A program made the position numbers and the translations under genes. Shown here piece after piece: positions 22,101 through 59,118 of a stretch of 64,000 bases of DNA; the first letter of the stretch is position 1, and every line of letters starts with the position of its first letter. The notes beneath the pieces were generated by a model. That model did not search any database, was not told the origin of the DNA, and saw only the letters and a program-made list of their open reading frames with translations. This DNA comes from Ectocarpus siliculosus (lineage: Eukaryota; Sar; Phaeophyceae; Ectocarpales; Ectocarpaceae). The DNA is taken from assembly GCA_000310025.1 (NCBI GenBank), contig FN649739.1, positions 3,499,722 through 3,563,721 of the forward strand, read 5' to 3'.

Positions 22101-25100
22101 GTCACAGACTTAGGGTTGATCACGAACGGGTGCACCTGAACGTTGTGTAAGGCATGATTCGGCAAGAGGGAAATTTCGTAAGCCCCGCAAGTAGTCGCAC
22201 CAAACGTAATATAATCGGGTTGAACAAACGCCGATACAACCGCAACAACACGGGCATGGAAAGCAGTGTCAGCATCATCAATACAACAAGTTCACACATA
22301 AGGGCGAATACACGATTATTGCAACCAGACAGGATGAAACCGCCACAAACGTGTTGACAAGAAAATATCTTACCGGGTGATACCCATCGACGCCGTCCTT
22401 GCACATCTGAGTCTTGGCGTTCATGAGCGTTCTCCACGCCACCGACTTGCCCGACATCGTTCTGAAAATGATACAAAGCAAAGTACACATATTCTCACGT
22501 GTATCAACGATCGACGATTTTGTTTCACCGTATTTGATCCCTCTCCCTAATCTTGCCCGATCCCCCCGGCACGAAAATGGGACGCCAATCGGGTGGACTT
22601 TCTGGTTTGGTATTATGTAGTTCGCACGAAACCAATTCTGTGACACTAGTCTGATCATCTCCATAGACGTGTTCTTAAACGTCCGCTAACATACATGAAT
22701 GCGTCCAGGCTGCAAGGAACAGCCACGAGGGACTCTGAAGAATGTGAATCGGCATGTTCGTATTACCGACATGCCCCCGGGCCAGGATGACGTACAAAAC
22801 GTCCGATCCATTAGTGTTGGATGTCGATTAGCGGTTACGAGCTAACTGTTCCGGAGGTATCAACCACGGTCGACTGTGCGACAGGAGATCAAAGACGGCC
22901 CGGCCAGGCATTTGGGAGTGGACATACCGTCTGTATCTGAGGGTGATGTGCCAGATACTGGAGCATTGTTTTATGCGCTCACCTGCCGACGAGCATGTTG
23001 CAGTGGCGGGTGAGCTGGGAGTCGGATAGCTGAATGATCTTCATGATGAGGAACGGATGCTGCTGGAGCCCCTTGCTTGTCAGTTCCTTCTCCACGGCAA
23101 CCTGTTCTCAGCGGGATTATTTCGATTCGGCGTAGACCACGCACAGTGTTAGGGGACACAAGCCCACGGTCACGGCAAGGCCCTGCGGACACGAATGCAC
23201 GGAGCGTTACGCCTCGTCCAATGATTTCTGATAAACTCATTGAGTGACAAGATGTTCGAGAGTCGAACTTCGTAGGAAAAGTATGTTACACGATGTACAT
23301 GTCAACAGACGACCCGTTCCTGAGCTAGACCCATCCGGTTACGAACGGACAAGTGTAGTTCGGGAGCTTACGTTCTGGCCAGTGACCCATTTGTCACAAC
23401 GGTCAAGCGATCTCGACACAAGAAAGGCGATGACTGCTCTCGCAACAGGCGAAACGAGTCGTAAATAGAAACGTAGCTATGTAGGGATCGACACATCAGA
23501 ACTCGCCACGTATGCAGACAGAGGGGTCGGAGCGATAGCGAATTTTTTACTTCGAAGTAGGTATACAGCATGTAGCGCTTACCTGAAGAGCGCCGTACTC
23601 CGGTACTGGGAGTTCCAACGAGGGGAACAGGTCTCCCAACAGTAGTCGAAACAGCCGCTCGTCGTCTTTGATGAACTTTGGAAGGTTCATGTCCCTGAAC
23701 GCGTCGAGACGTATCGAAGACAAGTTGTGAGAGTTTCTCGTGGCTGGAAGCATGCTGGGGTTAGACTTTGCTGCCGCAAAGATGGAGCGTATCCGCAACT
23801 TCGCAATACTTTGAACTATTGTGGACACCTTACCACCACACCTGTTTCATCGGCCGTATCCCGAAGAATCAGCTCGGTGACGAACCAGAAACGATACCTG
23901 AACAAATGGTTGCGCTATTTGTGCCCCCCTCGGTAGTAGCTGACTGAAACAGGTCCCTCTCTCAGCTCGAGAATAGGCTTACCGAGAAACATGGGTGACA
24001 GTGAACCCCATCGACCGCCGCAGGGAAAAATAGAGTTGTTCGTTTACGCCAAACCTACTTTCGAAGGGCGATTGCATGGAAAGACGGACCCAATGTTCCT
24101 GGGGCATCTGCCCTTACATGCTCACCTCAGAGCTCGCATGAGAATCGCTTCCTCGTTCATGTTTGGGTCCGCCCGCTTCAATGCCCCGGCCATGTTCAAC
24201 ACCGCCTTCAGGTTTCTCAAACCATAGTCATAGTGGTCCTGCGCGGTAGTTGATGGCTTTTCCTCAAGGTTTTTGCGTTTCTGGTTGATATTTCTCGAGA
24301 TAGGGGTAGTGGTTGAGATCGCTTGAGATTGATATGGTGGCTTGGTCGTTCGTACGGGCCGTCGAGAGCACTGCACCTTGGTGTGGGGAAGCAGGGAATT
24401 GACTAATGCAGTGTTACGTTTTTGTACGCGGTTCTGATCGCCAAATGTTGTGACTAGATGGGGCGCCATGCCCGGGAATGGGCTTGTTTCGCTAAAACTT
24501 GCTTGCTTGGTCCGCACGGCCGAAACCATAGCCCCCGCCCACCGTTCGAACACCTGGGAAAACTTGGACTACTTCGCAAACGCTCTCTCGAGTAGGGGGT
24601 CTTCATTGTGCGGCATTCTGGGTGAGCTTTCTTGAAATGCTGTAAGTGACGAGATTCGGTGAAGACACACGAAGGGAATGCTTCGGGTCGGAACCAAGCA
24701 AGCGTACGGGTAGACAGGCTACAACAACAGACGAACCTGTTTGGAGAGCTGCTGGATCATCAGGCTGTAAAGAGTGACCGTTTTCTTCGCTAAGATGCGG
24801 GCCTCGCGGAAGCCTTCTGCCGCGAGCATCACCTCGGCGATCATCGCCAGATCTGGTGTCATCATGGCCACTGGTCGCATAAGCGCCTGGCGGTGATAGA
24901 GCGATGGCACGCAGAAGGTTCTTGGACGAGCAAGTGGCCCGCGCATTGTGCATTGGCCATCCTTGTAATTCGGACCCACTTGATTCTGGATATAGATGCT
25001 CATATGGCACATGGAAACGGAGCGTGGTGGTGCTGCGTTCGAAAGACATTTTTGCACTTTGAGGCCTATCGATATCCAAACCGGGGCAACCGCACAAACA

Positions 25101-28100
25101 GCCGCTTTCCCACGCTCGACAGCTTTGGATACGTTGCCAAGTAGCTGTTAGCGTCGATAGGTTCCTGCGACTGACGCTTCCCTCTCGTTCATTCCGTACC
25201 GTGGCTGATTTTCTCGTTGCCATTGTTCGCACGAAAGCCCCTCACTCGCTGATATCGTTTTCCGTACCTTGAGGTTATCCGGTAGCTCCGTGCGGCCGGC
25301 GTACCCGGGGTTCATGGTGATAAAGATGCCACAGTTGGGGTTGCACTTGATCATGTTCCCCATGAACATGAGAGAATCCTTGTGCGCGCTGAGGGCGTTG
25401 AGGATCGAAAGCACCTGGAGGGAAAAGCGCAACATCATGCTCAATCACGTTTTCCCGTAGCATCAGCTCTACCAGCAGCACGACCATCACGTCGAGAATA
25501 GTCAGAAGCAGAAGCAGCAATATCTGTGTCCACACCAGCAACATGACATCACAAAGCAGAACGCCATTCAAAGTCACGAAGGAGGGGAGTACGCTTGCTT
25601 CGCGCCCACCTGCACGGCCACCACTGAAATAACCTCAATCTTGATCCGGTTAAACTCATCGAAACAGCCCCAGCTTCCGGACTGCACCAACCCTGAGAAA
25701 ATACGCCCGACGGACTTGTAGTCCTGACCATCGGAGCAGTTGATCACCACCACGTACTTGGCCAAGTTCTTGCCCAAGTCCTGCGACACAGAGATATGGG
25801 GTTAGCATTTGTCAACAGGGGAAACGGTGGCGTAAGTGACAGTTTATGCGTTGGGCCCGGATGCAGCACAGAAGAAGGAATATTTTCTGATCAGGATCAT
25901 ATGGGTTCAACCTCAAGATCAGGCAAAGGTCACGTTGGTCCCTTGGTGAACGGTGCATGGCGAACGACAGGGATGCGAAACGGAAGAAACGGAGCGCGGC
26001 TGGGGAAATAATTAGGTGATGAAATTTTGCAACCCTTTTAAGCTAGTGACGAACCCCGCGATGGAATCCGAAAGGTGAGAGGTGGAGGCAAGCCCGTCGC
26101 GTAGCCGATTCATGATAACGGTACCGCGGGGAGTCCAGGTCTCCTAGGGAAGAATCTACACAGTCCTAAAGAGAACCGGGAAACCGACCCACGTTGTGCA
26201 TGGTATCAAAGATACGCTCAAACCAAAATGCTCAATGAGGAGGAGAACAAGAAAATGCCCACCACATTTGATATTGGTGCTGACCTTGACGGTTTCGGTT
26301 TTGCCCGTTCCTGCAGGACCGAGCGGGTTCCCTCCACGGTGGAGGTACATTGCCGTCGTCAGCGTTAGCACGCAGCGGTCGGTCAGCGGCGTGACAACGA
26401 GCCGACCGTTGTTTCCCTGTACAATAGGTCAATATTTGAATACAGTTGATTCGAGTGGAAACGTTGGGCAAATCGTTTTTGCTACGGAACAGAGTAAAAG
26501 AGGTTTGTATGTTCACCAGCCCTGGCAGGTAGTCTTGCAGAAGTGCTGGTTGAGCGTACGTGTGTTCGACTTCAGCCGAAGAGAAAACACTCTGGCCGCT
26601 CAGATGATATTGTCGTTCCGGACGAAACCAAGTGAGGTCGGAAGCTATTCCAATTCTGGGCCAGGAGTGTTTCGTATCCAAGGACTACAGCATCCGCTTT
26701 TGTGTTTCTCTAATGCTGTTGACAACGCCGAGATCAGGGCGCTCGACGCACGCCAGATCGTGGGCTAACGGACTCTGACCATACGTTTCACAGCAACCTC
26801 CTGTTGTGCGTGTCTGCCGTTTCTCTTTTCGCCAAGATGGTCTCATCGTCAACCCTCCCAGAGCCCTCACGTGGTGATGCTCTGCTCCCTAGGTCGTGGA
26901 ATGTTGTCCAGTGCCTCACTAGCCATACATGTGTATGAGGACGCGCTCTGGTGAAATGTTAGGAATTAATCTGATGACGCTCAGCCCACCTGATACTCGT
27001 AGGAATACTCGAGCTGGCAATTGGTTTGCCTTACGGAGACCATGCCGAAGGGACCATCCTCTCTCGAAAACACGAAGCGAAGCTGAGACAACCACTCGAA
27101 ATCGGAAGTGGCCGCGCAGCCGGCCTTGATCATCCGCTCCATCACATCCCTGTCAGGGTCGGTAACGGATAAACCGTGCATTATCGTGACGATAAGTGGC
27201 GACAATAGTCACAAATGAGGGAGGTTGTAGTCTTAGGGACACACTTGGCCGTACTAAATTTGATGGGGGTATGCAAGCGTCTTCTGCGATGTCACGCCGG
27301 TTTCAACGCGAAGATCAAGTCAAGCTCGGGGCTCGAATTTTCGATCAAGGTGGGGGAAGAAAAAGAACAAGAAAATGTTTTCGCTCTTACCGGTTGTGGA
27401 TCTCCATGGTGATGAGAGCCACCAGCTTGTTGCGCTCGATCTTCGTCAGTTGCCCTCGAACCATGTCCGACATTTTGTTGAGATATCCAACCTGAGCAGA
27501 TGAAGATGGGGGAGCCGACGCAAACGCACTCTGGAGTTCATGCATACACCCGCTTAATCCACTCTCATTTGCAATGACACACGATGAAACCAGCTGAGTG
27601 AGAGTTGGACTGTGTTGCTTAGACTTTTCCCACAGTCCCCCCCTTGTACCCAGCAGACGGCCAGTCTCGACTCGATCCGATCACGAGACGCAACCTCTGC
27701 AACAAACAGGGTATTTTTCGTCGAAGCACCTGTTTCTTCTTGAGGGCTTTGAGGGCGGTTTTGTTGCCGCCCGAAATGGCATTGAGCGCCTTGGAACAGT
27801 CTGTGGTCCACTGAACGGCCCCCGTAGAGATCAACAGTTGCCCTTGGTACTCCTTCACCCACTTGTCCTTTTTGCCCCTGCGACAAATACACACGACGGA
27901 GGTGGCAGTGCAGGTCACGAATTATCCAGATGGAGGGTATTGCATGCCTTGACATTCTTCAAGGCGGAGCTCGTGTGACGCACAGTAAACATGGCTGCCT
28001 CACTTGTACGCCTGCAAGGAGCTCGCCAGAAGCTTCTGCAGAGCGGTCTGCATGGCGCTTTCCAGTGCCGCCAACCACATCTCTACGGCACCATCGACGA

Positions 28101-37100: not shown

Positions 37101-40100
37101 CACACCTTATCTTGAAGGCGCAAGAGAAAGGTAGACTAGCCACAAGAAACAGACGCAGGCAATATTGTAGTGCGTGGCCATGTCCGTGGGAATTGAGTTG
37201 GTTGGCGTTCTGCAGCGATACGAAGGTCAGTCAACTGAGCTCGATCGGACACCGAGTTGTGTCTCGTTCGACCCCTTTATACTCAACCTGCGACTGTTCA
37301 AACCTTGACAGTGAAATAAGCTGCGTGCCTGTTCGCTTACCTTGAAGAGAGTCTGAGGTTCGGTCTTGGCGTCTCCGTTGATAGCCTTCGATAGCTGCTG
37401 CAGAGATTTCTTGACCGTGTTTCGGAGGGACAACTGAGGATCACAGACAGAACACGCAGGAAACGAGGTGGACGGACAGGCCAGACGACAAGCGGCCATG
37501 CAAACTCAGATAGAGTGATGGACACGTCGCAAGATGCCGGGAGGCTGACGCAAAACGCTGCGTCGGCAGGAACACGTTGGACGCTCTGACGGTTTCTCAT
37601 TCCAAGTGTAGGATGTTCGACCACCGCACGTGAAATGACGACCGGTAGGCTCCTGCTAGTTACACTTGTGCCATCATACTCAAGTGGCAAGGTCGTACAG
37701 GATTCGTGAAGACAACGAAAACCGTAAATTTCGTCCGATTTGAGTCTCAGCAGGGTATTTCAATAAACAGCGCGAGGGAAGACCGTGAGCAGTCAGGCAC
37801 GGATGAAGCTAGGATCATGCTTCCTGTTTGCTAAGGAAGGTGTTGAACGGAACAGGGAGGAATACCTGCCAACACCCTCTCGTCAACCCTTGAAACGTGC
37901 AATCTTGAAACCGTCTCCTTCGTCGTGCCCGTGTGTCCGAAAGCTTAGCTATGCTATAACCATACGATACACACAGCAGTAGCGATACACACAGTAGCAC
38001 AGCTTCGCTGAACGAAATCCTCACAAGAACACTCCTTGAGGCCGCCATGTTGTTTGGAAAGAGGCGTTGTTGGTTGCCACAAGAGCGAAAGGTTGGTAGA
38101 CGTAAGCCAAAAGGTGCGAAACTTTGCTTCTTAGGCACAATGAAACAACGTCAGAATGCATTCATCAAGCAACTTACTTCCGACATACCTCAATGTTGTT
38201 GTCAGTTTGGGCAATGAGCGCCCTTCGTTCCCGCTTGACCTCGCTCGAACCGCCCTCGAAGCAGGCGAAGATCTCCCGCATCGACGTTAGCACCATATCG
38301 TGTGCCCACTCCATCTGCTCGTGTGTGCACCGTGTTGAATGTGGAGGGTTCTCAGTGCAGGCGGTTTATTCACGAGAGAGCTGGTTTTCGGGCAGAGGTA
38401 GAACTATGGTGTACACACAAACTATGTGGCCGGACTCTACAAACGTTGCTACGTGTAAATGGTCTCTGATAGGCTACATGTACTGTAGTACGCGCGGCTT
38501 GTGTGCTTGTAAAGGCGCGAATGTCTTCGCTGTTTCCGGAACGAAGTATTACAAGTACCACACGTGATCCAACATTACAATACATACGTTTAAATTTGAG
38601 TTCGAAGGTTCGCAATTTTTTCCTCAAATTCTGTACACCATGGTACAAAGACTATATATCCTTACAGTCCGGTATCTGTGTTTGGTCAGCCACTACTACT
38701 ATTCGCACGTGAGTTCGGCGGTATAGATAAGACTGCCGTCCGACCAGTCACGTGCTGGTGATTTCGTAGCGCGTGGCTAAACCTACATACTGTACCACAA
38801 AACATCCACAGGTCCTATTCTATGCACGCACCTTGCGGCGCACGCCCACACAGTGATCGGCCTGCTGCTTCGCGAACTCCCTGTCGTCGTAGACGGCGTT
38901 CTTGTCTATCCTTGTCAGCTGCAGACCGGCCAGCATGCGGCACTGCCTGACGACGGCCTCCTTCTGTTTGTGGACTCCTTTAACGATCTCTCTCGTCTCG
39001 GCGGCATGGTTGCAGCAGTCGCGGACATAGAACTCCACAATGCCTATGTACACATATGTACCAGCGACAAGGGGTGGCGAGAGGAAGGTACGTGGACGCT
39101 GCTTTGAATTGGATATGTGGCCAACAACTGCTGTTGGTGTAACCGGCGGTGAAGCGGTGAACGGATCAGAGAGGGGGTACACAAGGCGAAATGCGGGGGG
39201 GGGGGGGGGGGTCCCGCGAAAGGGGTGACCGAGAGCGAGTTTCCCGAGTTCCTGGATCCTGTTCGAAATAACAGCGAACCCTTGTGCCTTGTGCAGCACG
39301 ACCGTAGTCCATCGTCAACTAGAAGGTCAAACGCTGCGGAACGGGAAGAACTTCAACCGACGCGATTCTGGCAAAGCGGTTGCCGCTCGTTATGTGGTGG
39401 CGACAAACGTAGGGAGCACCAGCGGTTGTGACGAGTTTGCATGCATTGTGCCCTCGTGTCGCGGTTTGCGGACGTGCTGCCTCTCACCTTCAAATCAGAC
39501 CTACTATTGATTCTACTCAGAGAAACATTGGCAACCACTTTGCGGATCCTCTAACGCTTCGTAAGTACATTGCAACCACAGCTACCGCAGCAACAGGAAC
39601 AGCGACGATACACGAGGCCTCACCTTTAGAACTCCAAGTAAGTTTTGTCATTCCTTGGTGTATCCGTTTGTCCAGGCGACGGATGTTGTCCGAAAATAGC
39701 TTGCGCTCAGACGGGTCTAGTTCGTTCAGAATACCTGCACAACGTCGTCGTGATCAATGATTACGGTTATCGTTCTGTGCGATCACAGAACAGGGCTAAG
39801 GAAAAGGAGGACTAAACAACAACCATGTGACTTTTCATCGTGGCATTCGAAACTAAACGTGCGTGCACGATGTAGGTAGCACTGACTCCCCCAGCGACAC
39901 TTCGCCAGTTTCGCACCAATCAGGCTTTAGATAAGCGTCAAATTTCCACCCTAGCGATAACCTTCACGGTGTGTGTAAACGCTCACTGTTGTATGCCCGA
40001 ACCACCAGCATGACGTGCTCTCGTTGCTCCCGCAGCTTCTCTCTCTGGTTGCAAATGTCGTGGGCCGCGTAGGGAACCGAGAATTCGCCCTGCAGAAGCG

Positions 40101-43100
40101 TGAAGTCAGCATCGGCAACAATCTGATGAGCATCGTACATCTGACATTGATCTGTGTGCCATACAAGCATGTGGCAACACTAATCATGCTTCAGCGCATG
40201 AAAGACGGGCACCCAGTTGAGCACGCGTGTTTCAGGGAGAAGAGAAGCTGTGGCGTATCTGCTGTGCTTGTCACGTGCGGAGGGAGTCGCGCCAATCGGT
40301 GGCACCGCATCATGCATGAGAGTTTGGAGAACCATGTTCCAGCCACGATAGAGGAAGATTGATACACCTGACATTCTTTGCAGTGCTACCATGATGAATT
40401 GTTGAGGGTTTTCCGCCACCGACGTCCACTGCAATCTGGACAACTATACCGACCGACACGTACAACAGCAACGACCAGACACGATTCGACCAGCTCACCT
40501 GGAACTTCTCCCAGTGGCTAACCTCAGAGAAGAGTGCGAGTAAGTCCAGGTCGAAATTACAGACCAAGTGCTGCAGGTTCAATGCGGAACGTGCGTGGGA
40601 CGGGGGATGGAGTCAGCTGAATCCGAATCTAGGCTACACTGGGTAACTCGCGCGACAGGGTTGCAGGGAATGAATCTTTCCGAACCCGTCGAAGTATACC
40701 AACGGATGGCTCCGGAACAACGGCAACCGTTGCTGGAAGTCTGGAAATACGACGAATAGTCCGTTCCGCTCGTTTTGGAGGCTATCCCCAGTACAAGCGA
40801 AATACCTGGTTATGGAGGTGGCCAGCCCTTCCCGTCCCTCCCCCGACTGCTGCCGTGACCGTTCCGGCACCGACTTTTCCGGCCCCCGCCGCTGCGGAGG
40901 GCTGGCCCGAGGATTGATGCCCCTTGCCAGCTGTTCACCGTTGAGTTCCATGTGCGACCGTGTGTTTGCAACTTGATTGAACGTGCACATGAACTTCGTG
41001 CAGGGCAAAGACATGTTCTGGGGGGGAAAGCTCAGAAGACGGCAACTCGATAGAAACGGCAACGCGACGAGACTGATGTGTCTATCGTGTAACGGAAGAG
41101 TAGACGTGAACGAAGAAACAACCTGTATTCGGAACAACAGTTTTCTCTCTGGGCGTACAGTTTTCTGACAGTCTCACAGTTTTCTGACAGTCTCACCTGC
41201 CGCCAGCTGTTTCTGCTGCTGCGTCTGAACCCTTGGGTCGGTGTCTGCCCTTCTCAGGAGAGGTACGTCCAACCTCACGCCAAGGGGCATGACTTCGATG
41301 ACTGAGTTCAGGTGGTCCACCCACGCCTGGTACCTGCGACACAGAATACCATCCAGAAAAGGAAGAAGGACAAAACCGGGAACAAGGTTCGAAAGTGGGT
41401 TTTACCGATCGAGATACTTGTGAGGGGTAAAGTTTCTCTCGGGCCCTTAAATTAAGGTCCTGAGGAATTTTCGTCTCTCCGTGGAAGGGATAGATGCTCT
41501 ATTGCCTCAAGGACGGATGTTCATAAAATTTAAATGAGCGCAGACAATCACCTTCAAGAGGACCCGTTTGGGGAGTTTGCTGGCAATATTGTACCCGGTA
41601 GGAGGTTTCAGGGTCACCAGTGGCGTATTGGGTGGCCGCCGACAAGGCCGTAGGTGGGAGGGTGATACAAGCTTAGGGCAGGCACCGCCCTTGGCAAAAC
41701 AGGGCACACATCACACAAACATAGGATCGTCTTGCTATGATCGTGCTCTTCAAGCAGTCAGCTCACATCACGTGGTATGGAGCCAGCTGGGTGCATTGGA
41801 AATGCCCAGCGAAAACGAAAAGCTTCATCGACGGTTTAAAACATCGGCATAAACTCTTGATTCCAATGAACAAACAAAACACTAATCTTTCTTGGGGCTG
41901 GCCTGCCTATCCCCCCTGCAACTCTCTCAGCTCTTTGTCGATCAACAGAATCAATTAATCACCTGTTGGCCTTGAAGTCGCCGATGACGGTAACGAAGAC
42001 CGTGTAGGCCGCTTGGGCCTCCTTGCAAGCCCCCAAACAAAGCGCGGCTTCGGCCTCGTCGCTCGCCATGGCCTGGGAAAGCAAAAGAATCAAAACACGT
42101 TCATGCAATCGAACGTTTTTCATCAGAATGGCTCGCCGTTGGTGACCACTCTGCAAGAATACCAATACCTTAAGCCCGTAGACTTCGCATATCAAGGGAA
42201 CTCGCGATGCAAAGAGCATCCTGCACGTACGGTACAGTGAGAGATGGGCCAGCATCAGACCGCAAAGCATGGGTAGTCAGATTTTGAAAGGCCCCAGCTA
42301 CCATAGATTCCTCTCCGAACGACAAGCATTGCGGAAAAAATGCTGAACCTTTGTATTTTGACTGCCCAAGGTTTTCCAGCAATGGACAGTCGGCCGTTTC
42401 GGTCCAATATTCGAATGTAGCTGTTGAGAGCAGCGGTGACGCAAAAATATAAACTTATGTGTACCGCAAGGTATCGCAGCCAGCAGGAATGGGAAGGAAG
42501 AGCAACAAACCTTGGCCATGTGTCTGCAGTTCTTCAGGTGGGACCACGCCTCCTCTACCCCCCGGGCCAGGGAGTGCGCCCACACCGCCGAGCCGGCAAA
42601 GGGAGGCTCGTTCGGACGTAGGGGGGGGCGCCGCCGATTCTCGTCGAACTCGTGCCGAAGGCCTTCCACATACCTTGGTCAAAGGGCGGTAGCGTCCGCA
42701 CAATAACCGAGCGAGAATCACGTAGTTGCATTGCATCATGGTTACTGAGCGGCGAAGAATCAAGGTCATGGAGCGGTGGGATCTGGAGAAGGGGGAGTAC
42801 TCAGTGTTTTGTTGGATTCATGATCGTACCGCACACAGTATACCGGTGGCGGAGGTCAACCTGAACGTCGCATCCTCGGTCAACCATTTATTAGGGAGCA
42901 AATGCTGAAATCCCAGATTCGTCATGAGCGGCAGGCTACGCCGTTACACCTCAATGATTCCACCTGTGCTTTGCCAGGCATTCCTGAGCAAACACTACGA
43001 ATCCCGCGACATGCGTGTCTCGCTACAGATCATCTGCGTTTCTCGTTCACCTGACGAAGAGCATGTAGGTGTACGCTGTCTTCTTGAGGCAAGCCTGCTT

Positions 43101-45869
43101 GATGGCATCACGCCTTGCGAGGGTGTAGAAGATCTCAAGCAAGGCCACCGCATCGGTAATCCTCGTGATGCCCTCGAATGCCGTGTTGATGACGTTCGTG
43201 TACATGACCTGCATTGCGGAAACGATCCACGCCCGGAACCCATACATCAAACAACAAGTACGTGTGGATTTAGAATTTTACCTACGGTTGATGACTTTCG
43301 TCGCTGATTGATGCGTGTCGAACTAACCTGCGATCGAAGCGTCAGCAACATGTGAAATGAACGTCGGAACTCGCTGAAGAATTACACCACAAGCTTAGAT
43401 ATTGCACCCCTTATCATCGTAGATTCTCTCGAGCGAAGTTGTGACTGTCCATCGCGATTGACAAACTGACCGCAATCGGGATAGAAAAAATACGAATCAC
43501 AGGCTGCAAACAACCGGAACATGTGCAAGGTATCGGAACTTCCCACCACGAAGAAGGCGGTTGCACCAGCAATTAGCTTTTGAGTCCAAAACAACCCCTC
43601 CCCGATCATGGGGGCATGGTCAAGAACGCGCGGTTTGGACACATTTTCCTCGAATGGTTATTACTCAACATTGGGTTTCGCAATCGTAATGTCGACGACC
43701 CTGGTCCTTGAAGGGCTTCCCATCACGATGCCGGTCCACCCACATTTCGAATACAATTTTTTCAGTACGGTTCCGAAATCAAACACCATGAAGTACCAGC
43801 ATGAAAAGCGTAGTGCATCACCGCACCGAAAAACTTGATGCGACGGCCTCCCAGTCTCACCTCCAAGTCCTTGACGACATCCTTGAAGGAGTTGTAGTCG
43901 TCATGCCATCTTGACGTCGTCACGTCCAGCACGGTGTAGTCAAGGTTTCGAAGCTTGTCGATCTGAGCCTCGAACGAGTCTTGGATGCCGAGGAGGGCCT
44001 TCGTGATCTGCTCGCCCAAGTATCAACCAATTTTACCACGTGGGAGAATTTCGTTCGAAGAAAACCAAAGTCCATGCCCAGCAAGCGTAGGTCGCACCGG
44101 AAACCACGCTCTCGGATGCCACAAGCGATGATTGTTTGGAGATATGATCCCGAGCTATGTAGGTTACCACCGGGTTGGTTCGAACACCATATCCCCTGGG
44201 GCTGCCCAGGATATCGCGATGACCCCCGGCGTCATCACACCACGAATGCCGTGAACCTCGTCCAATAGTAACACCCCACTGCCAACCCCTAGGTGGCGGG
44301 CTCTGATAAAACGCACCTCCCTACGCCGCACTGCATTGCTTTCGGTGTAGGAGGGAAAGACTTAAGGGGCTCAAAGAAGGCACGATTGCGCGTAGCTGTC
44401 AACTGCGGGGGGTTTGAGTTGTTGGCATCTGGAACACCGAGAGTCCATGCCTGCTCAGCTCCCTGACACGATATCGTTCAGCCCGTCCGAATCTGGCGCA
44501 GGTATGGTATCTTCGGCTCGGCTTCACGGTGCCTCCTGGACCTGAGCTTACCGCACCTCTTCATCCCGAACCTACTCGACACCACGTTCAGGCTAGAGCT
44601 AGGGTTAGGGCTAACGCGGGATTGGGTGGGATCAGTACCTCTTGTCCTCGAGTTCCCCCGAACTCCGGCAGTGCTCCGGATTCCCCACCCTCTCCCATCG
44701 TTTTCCTCGCCAGCTGTATCTGGCTCTCGCAAACCTCGAGCAGCTCCGAGCACCGCTGGACAAAGGCGTCGATCTATAATGACAAGAAAAGAGCATATGT
44801 TGCATCCTATCTCAAAGACTGTCGACACATGTAGGGCTGTTGAAGGAACGGTGTTCTTTTCAGGGTGGATTCTTGAATGAACGGGAGGAAGGAGGATAGG
44901 CGGCGGAGACGTTGGGCAGCAGCTGTTGTGTTATGTGCCAAGCGGAGATTGACACACAAATGCCCTATAGACACGGCTCATATATTTGTGATACGATTGG
45001 TCTCTTCATAGACCCAAAACACACGCCAGCACAAATCTAAAGCCCTCAAGTTCCATCTATCATGAGTGTCACGACCCAAACAGACCTAGAACGGACTTTC
45101 GGGGTCACCTGTGCGAAAATGGAAGCTTCGTCAAAGTCCCAGTGCCGCGAAGGTTCGGGAGTGCTTCTTCGAACCAACAGTGCCGTTCGCCGATACACCG
45201 CCTGCGAGGATATGCAAATTCCCGGTTGGTGATGTAGAGCTCGGACTTCGCAAAGGGACTCTGAACATTATCGCTGCGGGTGTCAGCGTGCGAATAACGT
45301 AAGCACCTAAACACCATGACTCAGCCATAAAACTGACGGTACCCAGATACCAACACAGTCATTTTAGTCAGGCCGTCCTACTATAATGTTAACGCTTGAA
45401 AGGCAGCCTCGGTGTTGTACGGACGACAACGCGTGATACACAAGACTGCACAGGTTGTTCATAACACACCTTCCATTCAACACCACACGCGCGACTCTCG
45501 TTCAGAACCGTCATGGCCGCGTCGATATCGCCGTCGAAGATAGCCCCCAGGTCGATTTCAGCGCAGCACCGGTGGATTATCTGCCGTTCGAAGGCCAACC
45601 ACAATTGTGCCAAGGGTTCATCAGGATTCGGTCAAGTATTCGCACCAGGCGATGTAGGCAGCACGCTACCCGGGGAGCTTACCCATCGTTTCGTGATATG
45701 TGATTCGTTCCTGACGGCCAATTTCGCTTTGACATACGACTGAGCGACCGCCTGACTACTCATCCAACTATTTTTGGTCTTCCATCAATCCCGACGTAGT
45801 ACAACGATGGTAGCGATAATGGCCATGACATTGACGACGATGACGGCCACCGAAGACGACAACATCATC

Positions 45870-45902
<33 letters not shown>

Positions 45903-48900
45903 AACAACAGCTGCAACAATACAACCCTTTGACCTCGTTTGATATCTTCCTGAGCAGCCCCGTCAACCTCTCCTCGGTGTTGTAGAACTTGCTGAGGTTC
46001 CAGATCATGCGTATGCAGCTCAACAGACCCGGAAGTAGAGCCGGAATTTCCTTCGGCTTCGCCATCGTCAACTGCCCCAGAATGGACAGGCGTGGGCGAA
46101 AAAATGGAAATGAGTGGGGAGCGGCTCATTGTGTTCTTCTACTCGAAGAGGAGCTTTTATCACTTCTTCCACCTAATCGCCCGATGGTGCTCCGCCTGCT
46201 CAGCGTATGGTACGTTTCTGCTATGGTGCTTGCCTGCCATTAGTCTCTCCTCCTCAAAGTGTGAGCTGGGGGGGCATTCTGAAAGAGGGCGCAGGGACAG
46301 AGAAGACCGATCTTCTCAAAAACTTTGATGTCTGCATCACGCAGTTGAACACGCTTGATTGAAATGCACGTTGAGGCCCGTACGAGACACGCAGAGATAG
46401 AAGTACAATCTCGACCAGTTTTGGTCTAACCTTGGCTTGAAGGTACGGGCCGCTTGAACCAACACAAATCTCGACTATTATGACCACAGATCGAACGAAC
46501 ACTTAGTGAGATCGCCGGTAATACCTTGCACGTCAGCAAACCAAACGTAAACCAGTACCGTGAACCAACAAGTGGCCATTCGGCGTGAACTACGGATAAA
46601 TCGATCTTCGAAGGAAGCGACTCAAAGCCGCTCACGTTCTGACAAGGGGTGGTGATGCTTTCGAGAAACTTGAGGTTGTTGTTGGCCTCCACGCTCCCCT
46701 CCTTGATCCTTTGGCTCAGCACATTGAAGGGCGCCAAGTAGCTCGAGTTGGCTGTATCAAGGATTGATACAACTACCTGACCAACCGAAACCGAGAATTA
46801 GCATTGTTTTCTTCTTGTGTGAGACTCGGAGAAAGCGATTGTAGTGCCTGGAATGGGCTAGTGCGGAAACCCTATCACCCGTTGTCATGAAAACGTGCAC
46901 GGTGGGTAGCATGAGGACGGAAACATCGACGATATACACGATAATATGTAGGCCCGCGGGGGACCTTCAACATCGATGGTCTTGAACCCTTCCATTCCAA
47001 TCTTGATGTCCACCCAGTGTGCCTTCACCCCACGACCCCATCTGACTACGCTATTTGTGTCGCACCTGGACGTCCGGCCGGAGCAGCTGCTCAGATATGC
47101 CGCTCAGGTCCACCATGCGGCATCTCCAAAACTGGCACAAATGGAAACATAAACGTGACGGGCTTCGGTTGAGGCAACTATAGCTACAATATGCATGAGT
47201 TGATATCTGATGCTACACCTCGAGGACACCGACCACTGAAAAATAACAACAAAACATGAACAGCGCGTGTGTCGGGTCGGGTCATCAAGTTACAGCAGTA
47301 CTTCACTTCTCCTCCATAGTGGCCATGTAAACAACGCTGTAGCCTGTTGTTGCCCTACCTCTATCTCTTCGAGGGGGCCGAGAATCTCGGCGCTCAGAGC
47401 GTTGTCGTGGTTGTTGACAACGTCTTTGATTTGGCGCGTCCAGTGAATCACGATGCTCTCCAGGTGCTGAACGAGGTCCTTCAGGCGATGAGCGGAAATG
47501 GATCGTGTTAGCGACGAATGGCATCGCATAAATGACATTTTATGTTGTCAGGACGTTTCGATCGGGTGTGATCATTTCTAGGTTCAGGGTCATATGTTCC
47601 TTTGGGTTGGACGTGTGACCATTTGCTCTCGAACTGCGGCAATTCCGAGGCCCTGGACGTGAATTACACAACAAGAGGGATGTCTCCCGGTCCACGAAGT
47701 AGCGCACTGCGGCAAAAGCGGTGTTCGGAGAGAGCACTTCGAGATGTTGGCTTGCACCCAACCAAGAGAGCGGCATAGAGCATGTTCAAGCTAATTGAGA
47801 CTCCCCGAGCCCAGAGAGGCGACACAACACTGAAGCTCACTTTATCCTTTGCTGCCACCGATATCTCGCCGATCTCCATCATGTCCGCCGGGAGGTACAT
47901 GACCGTCTTCCCTTTCGCCTGCAGTATTAGGCAAATTTTTCAAAGCAGGCCGAATGCGGACGAGTGTCTACAAAAAAGTCGGGCAAGACCCTCGAGTGCT
48001 CAATTCTAAATACCTTCAGGCATGCCCCCAACGTACACGCATATGGGACGAAGTCATGTATTTTCCACCCGGGGGGGGGAGGGATAGGAACATCGAGGTG
48101 CACGATTGGATGAAAACCGTGAATACCTCTGCCGCTTGCAGCCAATCTTGCACCCTCTGAAAGCTGCCGGCCACGCCTGTGAATCGTGACAAACCGAGAG
48201 TACTCTCACCCTCATAACCTGGAGCTAGGCTAAGCAGTCTACTCTTATTAGTCCGCCCTGTCATTCCGGTCATTGTCACATCTCTCGGCGGCACTGTTAA
48301 ACATCATCCGCTCTCCCTGACCTGGTTCGACATTTCAACGAGGGATGCCATGAACCGGTGGAAGTGACCCGTCAGGTCGTTCTTCACGCTCTCCGGCCAA
48401 CCCACTTGCCGCTTGAACACTCTGGGTATAGTCGAATACACCGATTGCACGGGATGGACGAGGAAAGGTTGAAAGCGGGAGAGAAGGGGCGGGAGAGGGG
48501 AGTTGGATGCGATGTTCAGAGTTCTGTGGATAGAGCATCGCCCAACGTACTTGTGGTCGTCGGCTTCAGCACGCCGGGGGTGCAGGGTAGAGCAGGGTCA
48601 GGGGTCATGAGAGCCGATGCCGGGAATAACTGGAAGGTCAGACTGCTGAAGAACCTCTCCACAATCGATGTAGGGTTCATGACTTCCGTTTCAAAGAGTT
48701 TTTCAGTCACACCAATCCTTAGGTGACCGCGGTTTCACCTCCCCAAGAACAATATGAAGACACACGAGGATGGCCCCGACGGACATGAGCTTGTCTTGAA
48801 TGTTTGCAAACGATTTATCGCGCCCCGCCAAAGAAAGCGAACAGCATAGCTCAAACCTTTCCTTGTTTTTTTTGTTCGAGGCAACCCCCGCCCTCTCGTG

Positions 48901-57900: not shown

Positions 57901-58485
57901 CAGTGTTTTTCGGAACAGTTGTTTCCACCGAAGCTACGGCCTCTTTACTCCGCAGCATTTCATATTGTGGATAAACCCCCATTTGGTTCTACTGCAAGCC
58001 GCTGTTGCATGCTAAGGCTACAAACACTCAAAGTGTAGAATATGTACTTTTGACGGACTAACCTCGTCGTGTTCTTGGCGCCAGTGCTTTTCTGGTACAA
58101 ACTCCGGCAGGACCAAATGCTCCTTTATCCACGCCACCACATCCATGTAGCTTTCCGCCTCACCCTCTACCACGGCTACAGCTGTAAAGCTAACCGAGGA
58201 TTCTTTTCGAGGGGCACCTGCTGTTGAGCTCACCCCGCCGATTTCTCCATCCCTGGGCAAAGATCCCATGGAATCATTCCCCCCTGACGAGGGTGCCGCG
58301 AACGAAGATGTAGACTCCCGTCGTTGCTCGGCCAGAAGGTCGGCATCATTGTCCGCTGAAGGTTGCTTCGGATCTGCTGCAACAGAGGCCGCGGACCCTC
58401 TCCGAGACGGTGATCCATTGTTGGCCGCCTCGGTAGGGGTGAGGTCCACCACGTCTGCCCTGCCTTGCCCGCCTAGGTCACTCAT
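1..58485 (-). CDS. DNAH2: Axonemal inner-arm dynein heavy chain 2 (I1/f beta), 97 exons, 3' end outside window
   Basis: This is the force-generating heavy chain of the two-headed inner-arm dynein I1/f, which slides outer doublet microtubules in the flagellar axoneme. Assigned exons read in one continuous frame from the ATG at 58,483-58,485 to position 1, and each exon length agrees with the phase of its neighbours. The protein follows human DNAH2, recalled from memory, along its length. Examples are the AAA2 segment around [13 protein letters not shown], the AAA6 segment LSPGVDPT and the stalk segment GLAGE. Other axonemal heavy chains match less well in the AAA1 and tail regions. A TAA stop lies in frame two codons before the ATG. 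Intron 2 carries a large nested element; other introns are about 90-1,000 bp. Six introns use GC donors. About 600 C-terminal residues should follow beyond position 1. Exon edges are read by eye and may be off by 1-2 bases. Confidence 0.95.
4556..6851 (-). CDS. DNAH2: DNAH2 exons 84-88: AAA5 module
   Basis: Exons: 6731-6851, 6446-6535, 5907-6026, 5269-5436, 4556-4684. Landmarks in order are [73 protein letters not shown], and [18 protein letters not shown]. These are standard AAA5 and AAA5/6 boundary motifs. AAA5 does not bind nucleotide in dyneins. The exon starting at 6,851 is placed by phase, which requires the acceptor in CTAG before 6,851 and not the later TTTAG. Confidence 0.95.
7056..11029 (-). 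CDS. DNAH2: DNAH2 exons 76-83: antiparallel coiled-coil stalk and microtubule-binding domain
   Basis: This region forms the stalk that carries the microtubule-binding tip. Exons: 10904-11029, 10276-10425, 9780-9908, 9177-9275, 8668-8775, 7943-8011, 7553-7630, 7056-7222. Heptad-like, charged stretches (10,276-11,029) form the outgoing helix. The tip is encoded around 8,668-9,908, with [22 protein letters not shown] and [12 protein letters not shown]. The return helix follows at 7,553-8,011, and KLVSGLAGE marks re-entry to the ring. Two consecutive introns have GC donors (10,903 and 10,275). Confidence 0.94.
11476..14882 (-). CDS. DNAH2: DNAH2 exons 68-75: AAA4 module and base of stalk
   Basis: AAA4 is another regulatory nucleotide site. 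Exons: 14755-14882, 14422-14530, 13986-14153, 13484-13570, 12804-12976, 12175-12346, 11767-11910, 11476-11574. The P-loop GVGGSGRQS lies at about 14,058-14,084; Arg in place of Lys is normal for axonemal AAA4. FLFNDNQ stands at the Walker B position. [30 protein letters not shown] and [11 protein letters not shown] follow. The last exon starts the coiled-coil stalk. A 58-bp tandem duplication lies just upstream of the exon ending at 12,976. Confidence 0.95.
12039..12131. repeat. CAG/CAA microsatellite in DNAH2 intron
   Basis: About 90 bp of CAGCAG turning into CAACAA repeats, 44 bp from the donor of the exon 12175-12346. It is intronic, so the poly-Ser, poly-Gln and poly-Cys translations here are not protein. 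Confidence 0.95.
12982..13097. repeat. 58-bp tandem duplication beside a DNAH2 3' splice site
   Basis: GATTGGACGGGGGAATACCG and the following 38 bases occur at 12,982-13,039 and again at 13,040-13,097, with two differences. On the host strand the first copy supplies the pyrimidine-rich stretch before the acceptor of the exon ending at 12,976; the second copy offers a duplicate of it. Confidence 0.9.
15363..19377 (-). CDS. DNAH2: DNAH2 exons 60-67: AAA3 module
   Basis: AAA3 is a regulatory nucleotide site. Exons: 19242-19377, 18818-18964, 17873-18049, 17431-17603, 16900-17050, 16410-16508, 15894-15995, 15363-15485. The P-loop GSSGAGKT lies at about 17,966-17,989 and Walker B is [10 protein letters not shown] in exon 17431-17603. 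The Trp-Tyr-Asp motif is rebuilt across the phase-2 junction between 17,431 and 17,050. [26 protein letters not shown] and [10 protein letters not shown] are the expected later landmarks. Confidence 0.95.
19760..23101 (-). CDS. DNAH2: DNAH2 exons 53-59: AAA2 module
   Basis: AAA2 binds nucleotide but probably does not hydrolyse it. Exons: 22983-23101, 22374-22461, 21992-22135, 21465-21536, 20810-20872, 20300-20412, 19760-19936. The P-loop GRTMSGKS is split by the intron between the first two exons and fits the GxxxxGKS pattern. [35 protein letters not shown] and the sensor segment [11 protein letters not shown] follow in order. These are among the segments most similar to human DNAH2. Confidence 0.95.
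23583..26416 (-). CDS. DNAH2: DNAH2 exons 47-52: AAA1, the main ATPase module
   Basis: AAA1 is the main ATP-hydrolysing site of dynein. Exons: 26285-26416, 25610-25780, 25268-25414, 24737-24886, 24126-24238, 23583-23694. The Walker A loop GPAGTGKT lies at about 26,297-26,320. Walker B is in CFDEFNRI (exon 25610-25780). The sensor-I segment [17 protein letters not shown] is in exon 25268-25414. [13 protein letters not shown] and DMNLPKF close the module. All key residues are present, so the motor looks catalytically competent. Every junction is in phase. Confidence 0.96.
26990..36171 (-). CDS. DNAH2: DNAH2 exons 28-46: end of tail and linker (DHC_N2 region)
   Basis: The linker is the lever that swings across the AAA ring during the power stroke. 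Exons: 36016-36171, 35856-35926, 34714-34858, 34102-34251, 33689-33824, 33436-33522, 32850-32954, 32020-32115, 31441-31554, 30917-31066, 30609-30740, 30182-30283, 29661-29885, 29216-29376, 28620-28759, 28004-28181, 27730-27877, 27391-27491, 26990-27149. Family landmarks include [73 protein letters not shown] and [10 protein letters not shown], all typical of the axonemal linker. Exons 35856-35926 and 34714-34858 join in phase 2 and restore an Arg-Tyr pair at the expected place. Three introns here have GC donors (at 33688, 30181 and 29660). Confidence 0.92.
36534..49759 (-). CDS. DNAH2: DNAH2 exons 3-27: N-terminal tail (DHC_N1 region)
   Basis: The tail dimerises the heavy chains and binds intermediate chains. 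Exons: 49669-49759, 48549-48682 (edges least sure), 48322-48421, 47841-47918, 47359-47478, 47066-47131, 46972-47001 (30 bp), 46636-46776, 45934-46071, 45470-45580, 45109-45201, 44639-44773, 43861-44007, 43051-43208, 42511-42673, 41963-42072, 41197-41333, 40807-40891, 40499-40570, 39987-40089, 39624-39734, 38832-39043, 38189-38314, 37341-37433, 36534-36917. Diagnostic stretches are [62 protein letters not shown] and [11 protein letters not shown], all close to DNAH2. Two short exons (46972-47001 and 40807-40891) are supported mainly by phase. The second encodes a Gly/Ala-rich stretch. The last exon carries an unusual Ala/Gly-rich insert. Confidence 0.87.
39195..39211. repeat. Poly-G tract in DNAH2 intron
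   Basis: A run of 17 G on the plus strand (C on the transcribed gene's sense strand) in the intron between 39,624 and 39,043. It may act as the pyrimidine-rich stretch, although far from the acceptor, and is a likely sequencing-error site. Confidence 0.9.
41157..41196. repeat. Short tandem duplication carrying a DNAH2 5' splice site
   Basis: On the plus strand CAGTTTTCTGACAGTCTCA is repeated back to back. On the host strand this gives two GTGAGACTGTCAG donor-like sites about 19-21 bp apart. The first, next to CGGCAG at 41,197, fits the reading phase and is taken as the donor; the second lies just inside the intron. Confidence 0.75.
45859..45909. repeat. AAC microsatellite in DNAH2 intron
   Basis: About 16 AAC units beginning 24 bp inside the intron after the exon 45934-46071. 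Confidence 0.95.
49559..49608. repeat. CAA-rich microsatellite in DNAH2 intron 3
   Basis: Imperfect CAA units in the intron between the exons ending at 49,669 and starting at 48,682. Confidence 0.9.
50000..50083 (+). repeat. Short left-end A repeat of the YR element
   Basis: It shares the first 20 or so bases of A (AGGAAGGTTTGTTCGTCGAA) and a later block beginning CGCGTGAAGCAACGG with the full A units, so it is a shorter version. It marks the left boundary with host intron DNA. Confidence 0.7.
50140..50145 (+). promoter_or_regulatory. TATA-like box in element leader
   Basis: TATAAA in the context CCATATAAAGG, just inside the left repeat and in the same orientation as the element's recombinase. 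It could be the promoter of the element; this is inference from position only. Confidence 0.3.
50330..50420 (+). repeat. Two-copy 45-bp tandem repeat in element leader
   Basis: TGCGGTTC, then TCCCAACCGAGACGTACTCT, then CTGAAGAAAAA appears at 50,330 and again at 50,375, with a few differences. A second small duplication (GATGGTAT, GACAAGTCCC) lies at about 50,725-50,765. No gene is seen in 50,084-50,907. Confidence 0.7.
50908..51476 (+). repeat. Internal A-B repeat pair of the YR element
   Basis: A (50,908-51,240, 333 bp) directly followed by B (51,241-51,476, 236 bp). Both have the same lengths as the right-end units and almost the same sequence; one difference I can see is GGTCAG against GGGCAG in B. 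It sits inside the element, 0.9 kb from the left end. It may be a solo remnant of a second copy or part of an unusual left end. Confidence 0.8.
51800..54060. repeat. Tandem array of hairpin-forming repeats, about 28 cores, with 250-bp higher-order units
   Basis: A core of about 39 bp runs from CAGCACGGG through GACGCGCCAATGAGTGG to CCCGTGCTG. It occurs about 28 times between 51,800 and 54,030. The ends of the core are perfect 9-bp inverted repeats (CAGCACGGG and CCCGTGCTG) around a 21-bp loop. Between about 52,150 and 53,400 the cores come in groups of three, with different spacers, repeating every 250 bp or so (starts near 52,150, 52,400, 52,650, 52,900, 53,150, 53,400). Spacers include GAGTTAACCGATCTC and AATACCACAAATCATGCATC. 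The frames that stay open across the array are a by-product of the repeat and are not called as genes. Confidence 0.92.
54300..55320 (+). pseudogene. Gag-like region with CCCH zinc finger (part of YR element, fossil)
   Basis: A GC-rich coding-like stretch upstream of the recombinase. One frame near 55,060-55,125 carries a CCCH zinc-finger pattern (C, 8 residues, C, 4, C, 3, H). Nucleic-acid-binding fingers of this kind are found in first proteins of retroelements. Low-complexity Arg/Ala/Ser-rich stretches surround it. Coding signal is spread over more than one frame, so the region looks broken in at least one place. I cannot name a family beyond gag-like. Confidence 0.45.
55597..56547 (+). 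CDS. Tyrosine recombinase of the YR element (fossil element)
   Basis: A 316-residue open frame. It shows the core of the tyrosine recombinase/phage integrase fold: an arginine in the ITRSDEV segment, the H-x-x-R box in HSLRIGGAT, and a tryptophan and tyrosine in [13 protein letters not shown] near the C-terminus. In this enzyme family these catalyse strand exchange and insertion of a circular DNA intermediate. The frame looks whole, but the element as a whole does not. The true start may be upstream. It is antisense to the DNAH2 gene. Confidence 0.8.
   Translation: MWELIDFVAWCFESEGNLASTISGKLTAVQHFHRLEASVELDLSSPMLKCALRGIARNHVAVGTVRRVRLPVSWRMLLDGESASQNWGEGGRVMWLCLCLSYLFITRSDEVFANDAGRVHEAHCLTRADVALFAGETQLVFSHYRRADRVEMRFRGHKADQEQKGNIRVRTRDEVTGPQSGVRARGGAVALVVELLSCHATFPDSAPLASYRSGRAVRVVRYTAALRALREVVAKSGRNPQEYALHSLRIGGATALASGGDIAERVIQREGKWRSDAYKPYARNNVEDSRRVSRKLTDGSRIVPRQPGEGTVWGNG
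56591..57395 (+). repeat. B-A-B terminal repeat block of the YR element
   Basis: Two B units of 236 bp (56,591-56,826 and 57,160-57,395) flank one A unit of 333 bp (56,827-57,159). B starts TGTTGTAGAATGG and ends in an A-rich tail AAAATAAA. A starts AGGAAGGTTTGTTCG. The B copies look identical or nearly so by eye. The block ends exactly where host intron sequence resumes. Confidence 0.85.
57568..58485 (-). CDS. DNAH2: DNAH2 exons 1-2: disordered N-terminus and start of tail
   Basis: Exon 1 is 58,063-58,485 (141 codons) and exon 2 is 57,568-57,708 (47 codons). The first 90 or so residues are rich in Ser, Ala, Gly and Asp and look disordered, as in other DNAH2 proteins, whose N-termini vary. 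The end of exon 1 (WRQEHDE) and exon 2 ([15 protein letters not shown]) align with the human segment around WTQEHD and ILTIFIDPCFGLKL. Exon 1 ends in GAG followed by GTTAGT. Exon 2 ends in CCG followed by GTGAGT, in phase 0, and joins exon 3 across the 7.8 kb intron 2. The start codon lies in the loop of a perfect 16-bp inverted repeat. Confidence 0.85.
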
Positions 58486-58505
58486 CGCTTAGGCGGGCAA
58501 GGCAG
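58460..58505 (-). promoter_or_regulatory. Perfect 16-bp inverted repeat enclosing the DNAH2 start codon
   Basis: CTGCCTTGCCCGCCTA at 58,460-58,475 and its exact reverse complement TAGGCGGGCAAGGCAG at 58,490-58,505 leave a 14-base loop. The loop contains the ATG at 58,483-58,485. In the mRNA this would make a GC-rich stem of 16 base pairs with the AUG in the loop. Such a stem could control start-site selection (inference). Confidence 0.75.
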
Positions 58506-59118
58506 AAAAAAACTGGCGGTGGACGGATAGCGGTTGCCAATTCTCTCAGAACTCGGTCGCCGTGGCAACCCTCACAGTGGGTACTGCTAGTGGCGTCGTG
58601 TTCAAAAGCTCTCCTGTTGATGATTCTTTCGCCGATACGCGCCAGCTGTGCCAGGATCTCAACGGGCGTCTCAATATCTTTCTGGTCAGGCTGCACCGGC
58701 TTGGTCAGCGAATCGAATCGTGATGAGTGGGATATCGATATACAGCTACCAGCTGCCTGGCCTTGCTTGACAGATGACCTAGGCAACCGTTCTGCCAAGC
58801 GTCTAGCAGGAATGTTGGCATAGACCACCCCTTTGCTTGGATGAGTACTAGATGAAGAGATGGAATACTTAGGTGTGGTATCTTACGCAGGTAGTGGACA
58901 CCGGGAATCGAAACGATACCAATCCCACCGCAATCTTCAAGGCAGTTGTGCGCACGCACGTGAGTGTTATGTATCGTATCTTACCTACAGCAGGTCTGCA
59001 AGGTACTGTCCACACACCCTTGCAGCTCTACAGTCCTCTAGCCCCCGCGAGGTGTTATTTCCGCCCCGAGAGGGCACCAACGCAATATCTGAGACCCAGG
59101 CTGTCCACCCGGTACACC
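58486..59118. promoter_or_regulatory. Divergent intergenic region between DNAH2 and kinesin genes
   Basis: The two start codons point away from each other with 633 bp between them, so both 5' leaders and promoters must fit here. No clear TATA box is seen next to either start. Half-sites GGTTGCC (58,532-58,538) and GGCAACC (58,564-58,570) form an inverted pair reminiscent of a split X-box. A minus-strand frame open from about 58,828 ends at 58,478, overlapping the DNAH2 start. The kinesin may start upstream at an in-frame ATG near 58,969. Confidence 0.55.

Follow-up and report, generated by a model that had tools for sequence, protein, structure and literature searches.

The locus considered here raises the question of how a perfect hairpin came to enclose a possible start codon of a dynein heavy-chain gene in the brown alga Ectocarpus siliculosus, and whether the hairpin has any function at that place. 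The window, i.e., the whole stretch of 64,000 nucleotides that was analysed (contig FN649739.1, positions 3,499,722 to 3,563,721), carries on its minus strand a gene that, judged from its motor and tail domains, is a dynein heavy-chain gene, and the hairpin surrounds the first ATG of the frame predicted to begin it. Our leading explanation, held with a confidence that is about evenly poised, is that the hairpin is private to this locus, young and perfect, and that DNA replication left it, through a single short template switch, where a predicted DNAH2-type frame has its first ATG.

The two arms of the hairpin are 100% reverse complements of each other over 16 nt and are separated by 14 nt. In the mRNA sense, which is that of the minus strand, seven consecutive T residues are followed by the 5′-arm CTGCCTTGCCCGCCTA, the loop AGCGATGAGTGACC and the 3′-arm TAGGCGGGCAAGGCAG (Table 1). 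An earlier note, made from the letters of the window, had described exactly complementary arms around a 14-base loop that holds an ATG, together with a coding-side arm encoding L-G-G-Q-G, and sequence comparison bears out both points; the frame reads M-S-D-L-G-G-Q-G-R from the ATG, which is its first Met codon and has an in-frame TAA (58491–58489) one codon to its 5′-side. The complementarity ends sharply. Pairing between the flanks is at chance level, being equalled by 671 of 1000 shuffled flank pairs and at 590 of 1000 random places in the window, and a longer inverted repeat that would include the 7-nt flank match of GTCCACC with GGTGGAC was rejected for being at that level. No Rfam family reached its gathering score within the window.

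Whether such a structure could arise by ordinary substitution was judged from an ungapped hairpin scan (loops of up to 60 nt; match +1, mismatch −2) of 281,155 bases of the genome. The sample consisted of the window (64,000), 12 random 10-kb stretches (120,000) and 97,155 bases of loci derived from searches, the last of which are non-random; 15 of the 58 search-derived loci, four inside the window and 11 overlapping other dynein loci, were left out, and two low-complexity matches were removed. Seven hairpins with a score of at least 12, three of at least 14 and two of at least 16 were found, counting the start-codon hairpin, although these numbers do not amount to an estimate of the hairpin rate because the window was chosen for the hairpin. 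The dinucleotide-preserving shuffles, 50.1 Mb in total, contained 247 hairpins scoring at least 12, 23 scoring at least 14, two scoring at least 15 and none scoring at least 16, which corresponds to expectations per 281 kb of 1.4, 0.13 and, as a 95% bound for scores of at least 16, <0.02. The excess over the shuffles is genuine. Since no shuffled hairpin scores 16 or more, and since this hairpin is perfect and does not belong to a repeat, it is unlikely to be a product of random substitution, and the view of the earlier note that a chance origin of the palindrome is improbable holds. A search of the 189-Mb assembly (492 contigs) placed the 81-bp stretch around the hairpin at a single position, and the only two exact matches of the 16-nt arm across the genome are the hairpin's own arms.

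Perfect arms, sharp ends and flanks that do not pair beyond chance are what a single recent event would leave. In template switching, a stretch close by is copied as its reverse complement, so that a perfect stem can arise in one step, as described for hairpins in an RNA gene (Monttinen and Loytynoja, 2022, PMC8794818). The present hairpin resembles those in its perfect reverse-complement arms, its sharp ends and its restriction to one locus; it differs in lying at a putative coding start and not in an RNA gene. A template switch thus fits the perfect arms, the ends that do not extend, the single locus and the lack of an Rfam family. During replication, one arm would have served as the template from which the other was written in reverse complement, and the AUG would then have been folded into a loop, provided that the ATG is the initiator and that transcription starts upstream of the stem; a scanning 43S complex would have to open the 5′-arm on its way to the AUG, and initiation would probably be lowered to a modest extent. 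The coding arm may have been the source of the copy, as is weakly hinted at by the series of GGGCA or AGGCA units, which by eye runs on into a further GGGCA unit beyond the stem on the coding side; the other arm has no such continuation.

Several considerations weigh against this explanation. With a single genome to go by, we infer the ancestral state, the direction of copying and the event itself, and a stem kept by selection would look identical in one genome. Furthermore, the coincidence of the hairpin with the first ATG is still left to chance, and the background was taken from a small sample, 281 kb, of which roughly one third is non-random. Nevertheless, a template-switch scar is more likely than a regulatory element. 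If it is a scar, a single mutation is enough to equip a start codon with a strong structure, and a hairpin that is “too perfect to be chance” need not have been selected; because one template switch yields a perfect stem, “not chance” does not imply “regulatory.”

Table 1. Positions in the window of the hairpin, the putative start and the parts of the dynein gene.
Feature	Position	Strand	Remarks
Hairpin 5′-arm (mRNA sense)	58490..58505	−	−20 to −5 relative to the putative AUG
Hairpin loop, 14 nt	58476..58489	−	contains the ATG
Putative initiator ATG of the dynein gene	58485–58483	−	loop positions 5–7; G at −3, A at +4
Hairpin 3′-arm	58460..58475	−	+11 to +26, in codons L-G-G-Q-G-R
Open frame without ATG, putatively coding	58478..58882	−	TGA 58480–58478 in the loop; last codons in the 5′-arm
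Putative exon 1, dynein gene	58069..58485	−	139 codons; ends GAG/GTTAGT
Putative exon 2, dynein gene	57499–57723	−	
Dynein tail pieces (DHC_N1)	39622..47472	−	PF08385; 7 rows, 5 above the cut-off (3 of them only jointly with neighbours)
AAA1 motor exons, dynein heavy chain	23571..26419	−	PF12774; 6 pieces, all above the cut-off

The alternative that survives best does not concern the origin of the hairpin but its relation to the gene. The ATG may not be the initiator, or the stem may lie outside the mature leader: transcription might start in or below the stem, a 5′ intron might end there, or the 5′-arm might be the 3′-end of another frame, and in any of these cases the coincidence of ATG and stem would be meaningless. 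We regard this as unlikely, yet as a serious contender. The gene further downstream is not in doubt as a dynein heavy-chain gene, and the DNAH2 identity proposed for it earlier is reasonable as judged from the matches of two motor exons. The best three of the 76 matches of the P-loop exon are two DNAH2 chains and I1-beta (7.9e-19 to 1e-17); on the other hand, the top match of the second motor exon is a “dynein heavy chain, putative,” I1-beta is third and the first DNAH2 chain comes eighth of 82, so that the label stands firmly for the dynein heavy chain and less firmly for DNAH2. The beginning of the gene is much less clear. The putative exon 1 resembles no Pfam family beyond the chance level, nor does any dynein among Protein Data Bank (PDB) chains match it, and the putative exon 2 has no detectable homology in Pfam or among the PDB chains. 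The nearest tail piece (47359–47472), itself under the cut-off (E 0.003), is 10.6 kb away from exon 1, and the nearest one to exceed the cut-off is 11.3 kb away. Because exon 1 is without detectable homology, we infer the initiator from the open frame, and the claim of the earlier note that this ATG starts the dynein protein is not supported.

Codon usage does not single out exon 1 either. It lies at the 58th percentile of stop-free random stretches, a middling value that leaves it indistinct from random open frames; the first exon of the neighbouring kinesin gene lies as low as the 20th percentile of such stretches, and since this exon fails as well, the comparison is powerless. Codon usage was therefore rejected as uninformative for deciding on the start. 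The frame of exon 1 offers further in-frame Met codons, at codons 73 and 114, as alternative starts, but the ATG in the loop comes before any other in this frame, and position −3 holds a purine. As for splicing, the donor of exon 1 does not fit the phase of the TAG acceptor of exon 2 at 57717; it does fit that of an AAG acceptor 7 nt further on, at 57710. An intron that ends at the stem would find the 5′-arm within a pyrimidine-rich run (80% over the 15 nt before the AG at 58489) and a YAG at CCTAG/GC. However, what follows the pyrimidine run directly is an AAG, generally a poor splice acceptor, and before CCTAG the pyrimidine fraction is just 33%.

The remaining argument for a misplaced start comes from the unproven upstream frame, which crosses the 5′-arm and terminates in the loop. 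The upstream arm, which had been assigned to the 5′ untranslated region, need therefore not belong to it and may instead be coding. Comparison of this frame with PDB sequences returned five distinct sequences up to an E-value of 10, all of which are TOM20 (E 0.13–0.47, or 0.54–1.3 with a longer query). The Pfam family MAS20 did not match the frame, and a different family appeared at a similar level; searches of the genome with the frame, run without a positive control, found nothing, and a scan of prokaryote contigs for its relatives confirmed none. The structure model of the frame is poor (mean pLDDT 57). According to a published study, no TOM20 was found in the genomes of Ectocarpus or other stramenopiles (PMC3097184). 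A TOM20 homologue was rejected on account of the E-values, the lack of a MAS20 match and the poor model, and the resemblance of the frame to TOM20 is probably due to chance.

If the ATG is the initiator after all, the stem may have been kept by selection as a device of translational control, which would restrain dynein synthesis until a helicase of the Ded1/DDX3 type or another factor melts it. A regulatory reading of this kind is possible from the position and the energy of the stem, and we consider it rather improbable; the coupling to a stage-specific helicase or factor that the earlier note suggested is not supported. In the mRNA sense, the 46-mer of arms and loop is predicted to fold with −32.9 kcal/mol at 37°C, and with −41.3 and −46.3 kcal/mol at 20°C and 10°C, respectively, and a surrounding stretch of 161 nt with −77.2 kcal/mol; the three bases of the AUG, in the loop of the 16-bp stem, are predicted to be 96–100% unpaired. 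A z-score of −5.5 was obtained for the fold of the plus strand and is valid for that strand only, not for the mRNA. Published results on comparable stems differ. A hairpin of −30 kcal/mol that involved the AUG caused no inhibition in COS cells, whereas a hairpin of the same energy whose paired strands took in the AUG inhibited strongly in reticulocyte lysate (earlier work, as cited in PMC5784139). From these differing outcomes, initiation could be reduced modestly to strongly if the stem is part of the mRNA and the ATG is used. The earlier note had expected the stem to block scanning; slower initiation is probable with a stem of about −33 kcal/mol, but a full block is not established.

Known hairpins near start codons provide partial analogies. 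Most of the AUG-ds elements of Arabidopsis have 12–20 bp and −19.9 to −34.1 kcal/mol, and the present stem, a stable one near the AUG with 16 bp and −32.9 kcal/mol, falls within this range (Xiang et al., 2023, PMC10499604). However, AUG-ds elements are described there as lying downstream of the AUG and promoting initiation, with induced helicases resolving them, whereas the stem here begins upstream and wraps the AUG. START elements likewise place a stable structure where the coding sequence begins, but the structure is required from about +16 to +19 downstream and leaves the AUG outside (PMC7664666); the 3′-arm here starts already at +11, pairs upstream of the AUG and thus encloses it. The AUG-involving reporter hairpins cited in PMC5784139 also have the AUG taking part in a GC-rich stem-loop, with an energy near −30 kcal/mol, although they were inserted in test mRNAs and their output was measured, whereas the present one is known from its sequence. 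By analogy, the hairpin may work as an inhibitory hairpin that encloses the start codon. Against selection for such a role stand the arrangement opposite to that of AUG-ds, the uninhibited COS cells, notwithstanding the lysate, and the fact that no second example of such a stem came to light.

It is tempting to speculate further that the AUG-enclosing stem is a lineage-specific translational gate, which would make synthesis of the dynein heavy chain helicase-dependent, e.g., at the formation of flagellated cells, in an arrangement opposite to that of AUG-ds. This more specific proposal seems very doubtful to us. If a regulatory role were real, a very large flagellar gene would carry a natural stem that encloses its start codon, and helicase-gated initiation could be tested on it in a simple way.

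Pure chance pairing would be an improbable source of the hairpin, even though the setting is favourable to it: a pyrimidine-rich stretch faces a purine stretch rich in Gly codons, a local composition that brings the probability of pairing at each position up to 0.273. Even with this value, and with 18,000 genes assumed, a genome should have only about 0.007 start codons inside so perfect a stem, a figure that ignores other features which a reader could have flagged, and the score of the hairpin was unmatched throughout the shuffles.

The least credible alternative is a small palindromic transposon remnant resembling a miniature inverted-repeat transposable element (MITE), which we reject. Such elements are present here as dispersed hairpins, but the 81-bp stretch is single-copy, the arm has no other exact copy and none of the eight near-copies inspected has an inverted partner nearby. 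With up to two mismatches, the arm occurs at 132 places (63 forward, 69 reverse), slightly above the 115 of a reversed-pattern control (57 and 58). Among the 100 places listed, 21 are one identical two-mismatch word, and the two copies of it that were examined sit in a dispersed repeat in which 209 of 216 nt agree; neither these two copies nor six one-mismatch places have an inverted partner within 300 nt. The several copies by which a MITE or a dispersed repeat is recognized are thus not found for the start-codon hairpin.

A check of copies was also made for the other hairpins scoring at least 14, both of which are members of dispersed repeats. One is a MITE-like, near-perfect palindrome of 74 bp (L049:1800–1873) with 91 genome matches, on both strands, among those listed. 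The other is a perfect 14-bp inverted repeat at 61298–61344, near a kinesin exon, with 19 genome matches including itself.

The interval between exon 1 and the tail pieces of the dynein gene holds a tandem array of 250-bp units and a recombinase-like element. The array (51802–53824; 8.2 copies, 94% matches) adjoins the element, which occupies 54263–57395 on the plus strand, in the early introns of the dynein gene. Pfam detected nothing in its open reading frame (55552–56547); by eye, this frame contains a stretch HSLRIGGAT...Y, which we take to be tyrosine-recombinase-like. The element also carries a direct repeat of 238 nt (56589–56826 and 57158–57395) and is probably recent, because the two copies of the repeat are perfect. 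On the other side of the hairpin, a kinesin frame runs along the plus strand, with a putative ATG at 59119 and a motor exon at 60827–61126 (PF00225). The putative dynein start at 58485 and the kinesin ATG are divergent and 634 bp apart, and this arrangement makes it possible that the two genes, both of which encode microtubule motors, have a promoter in common.

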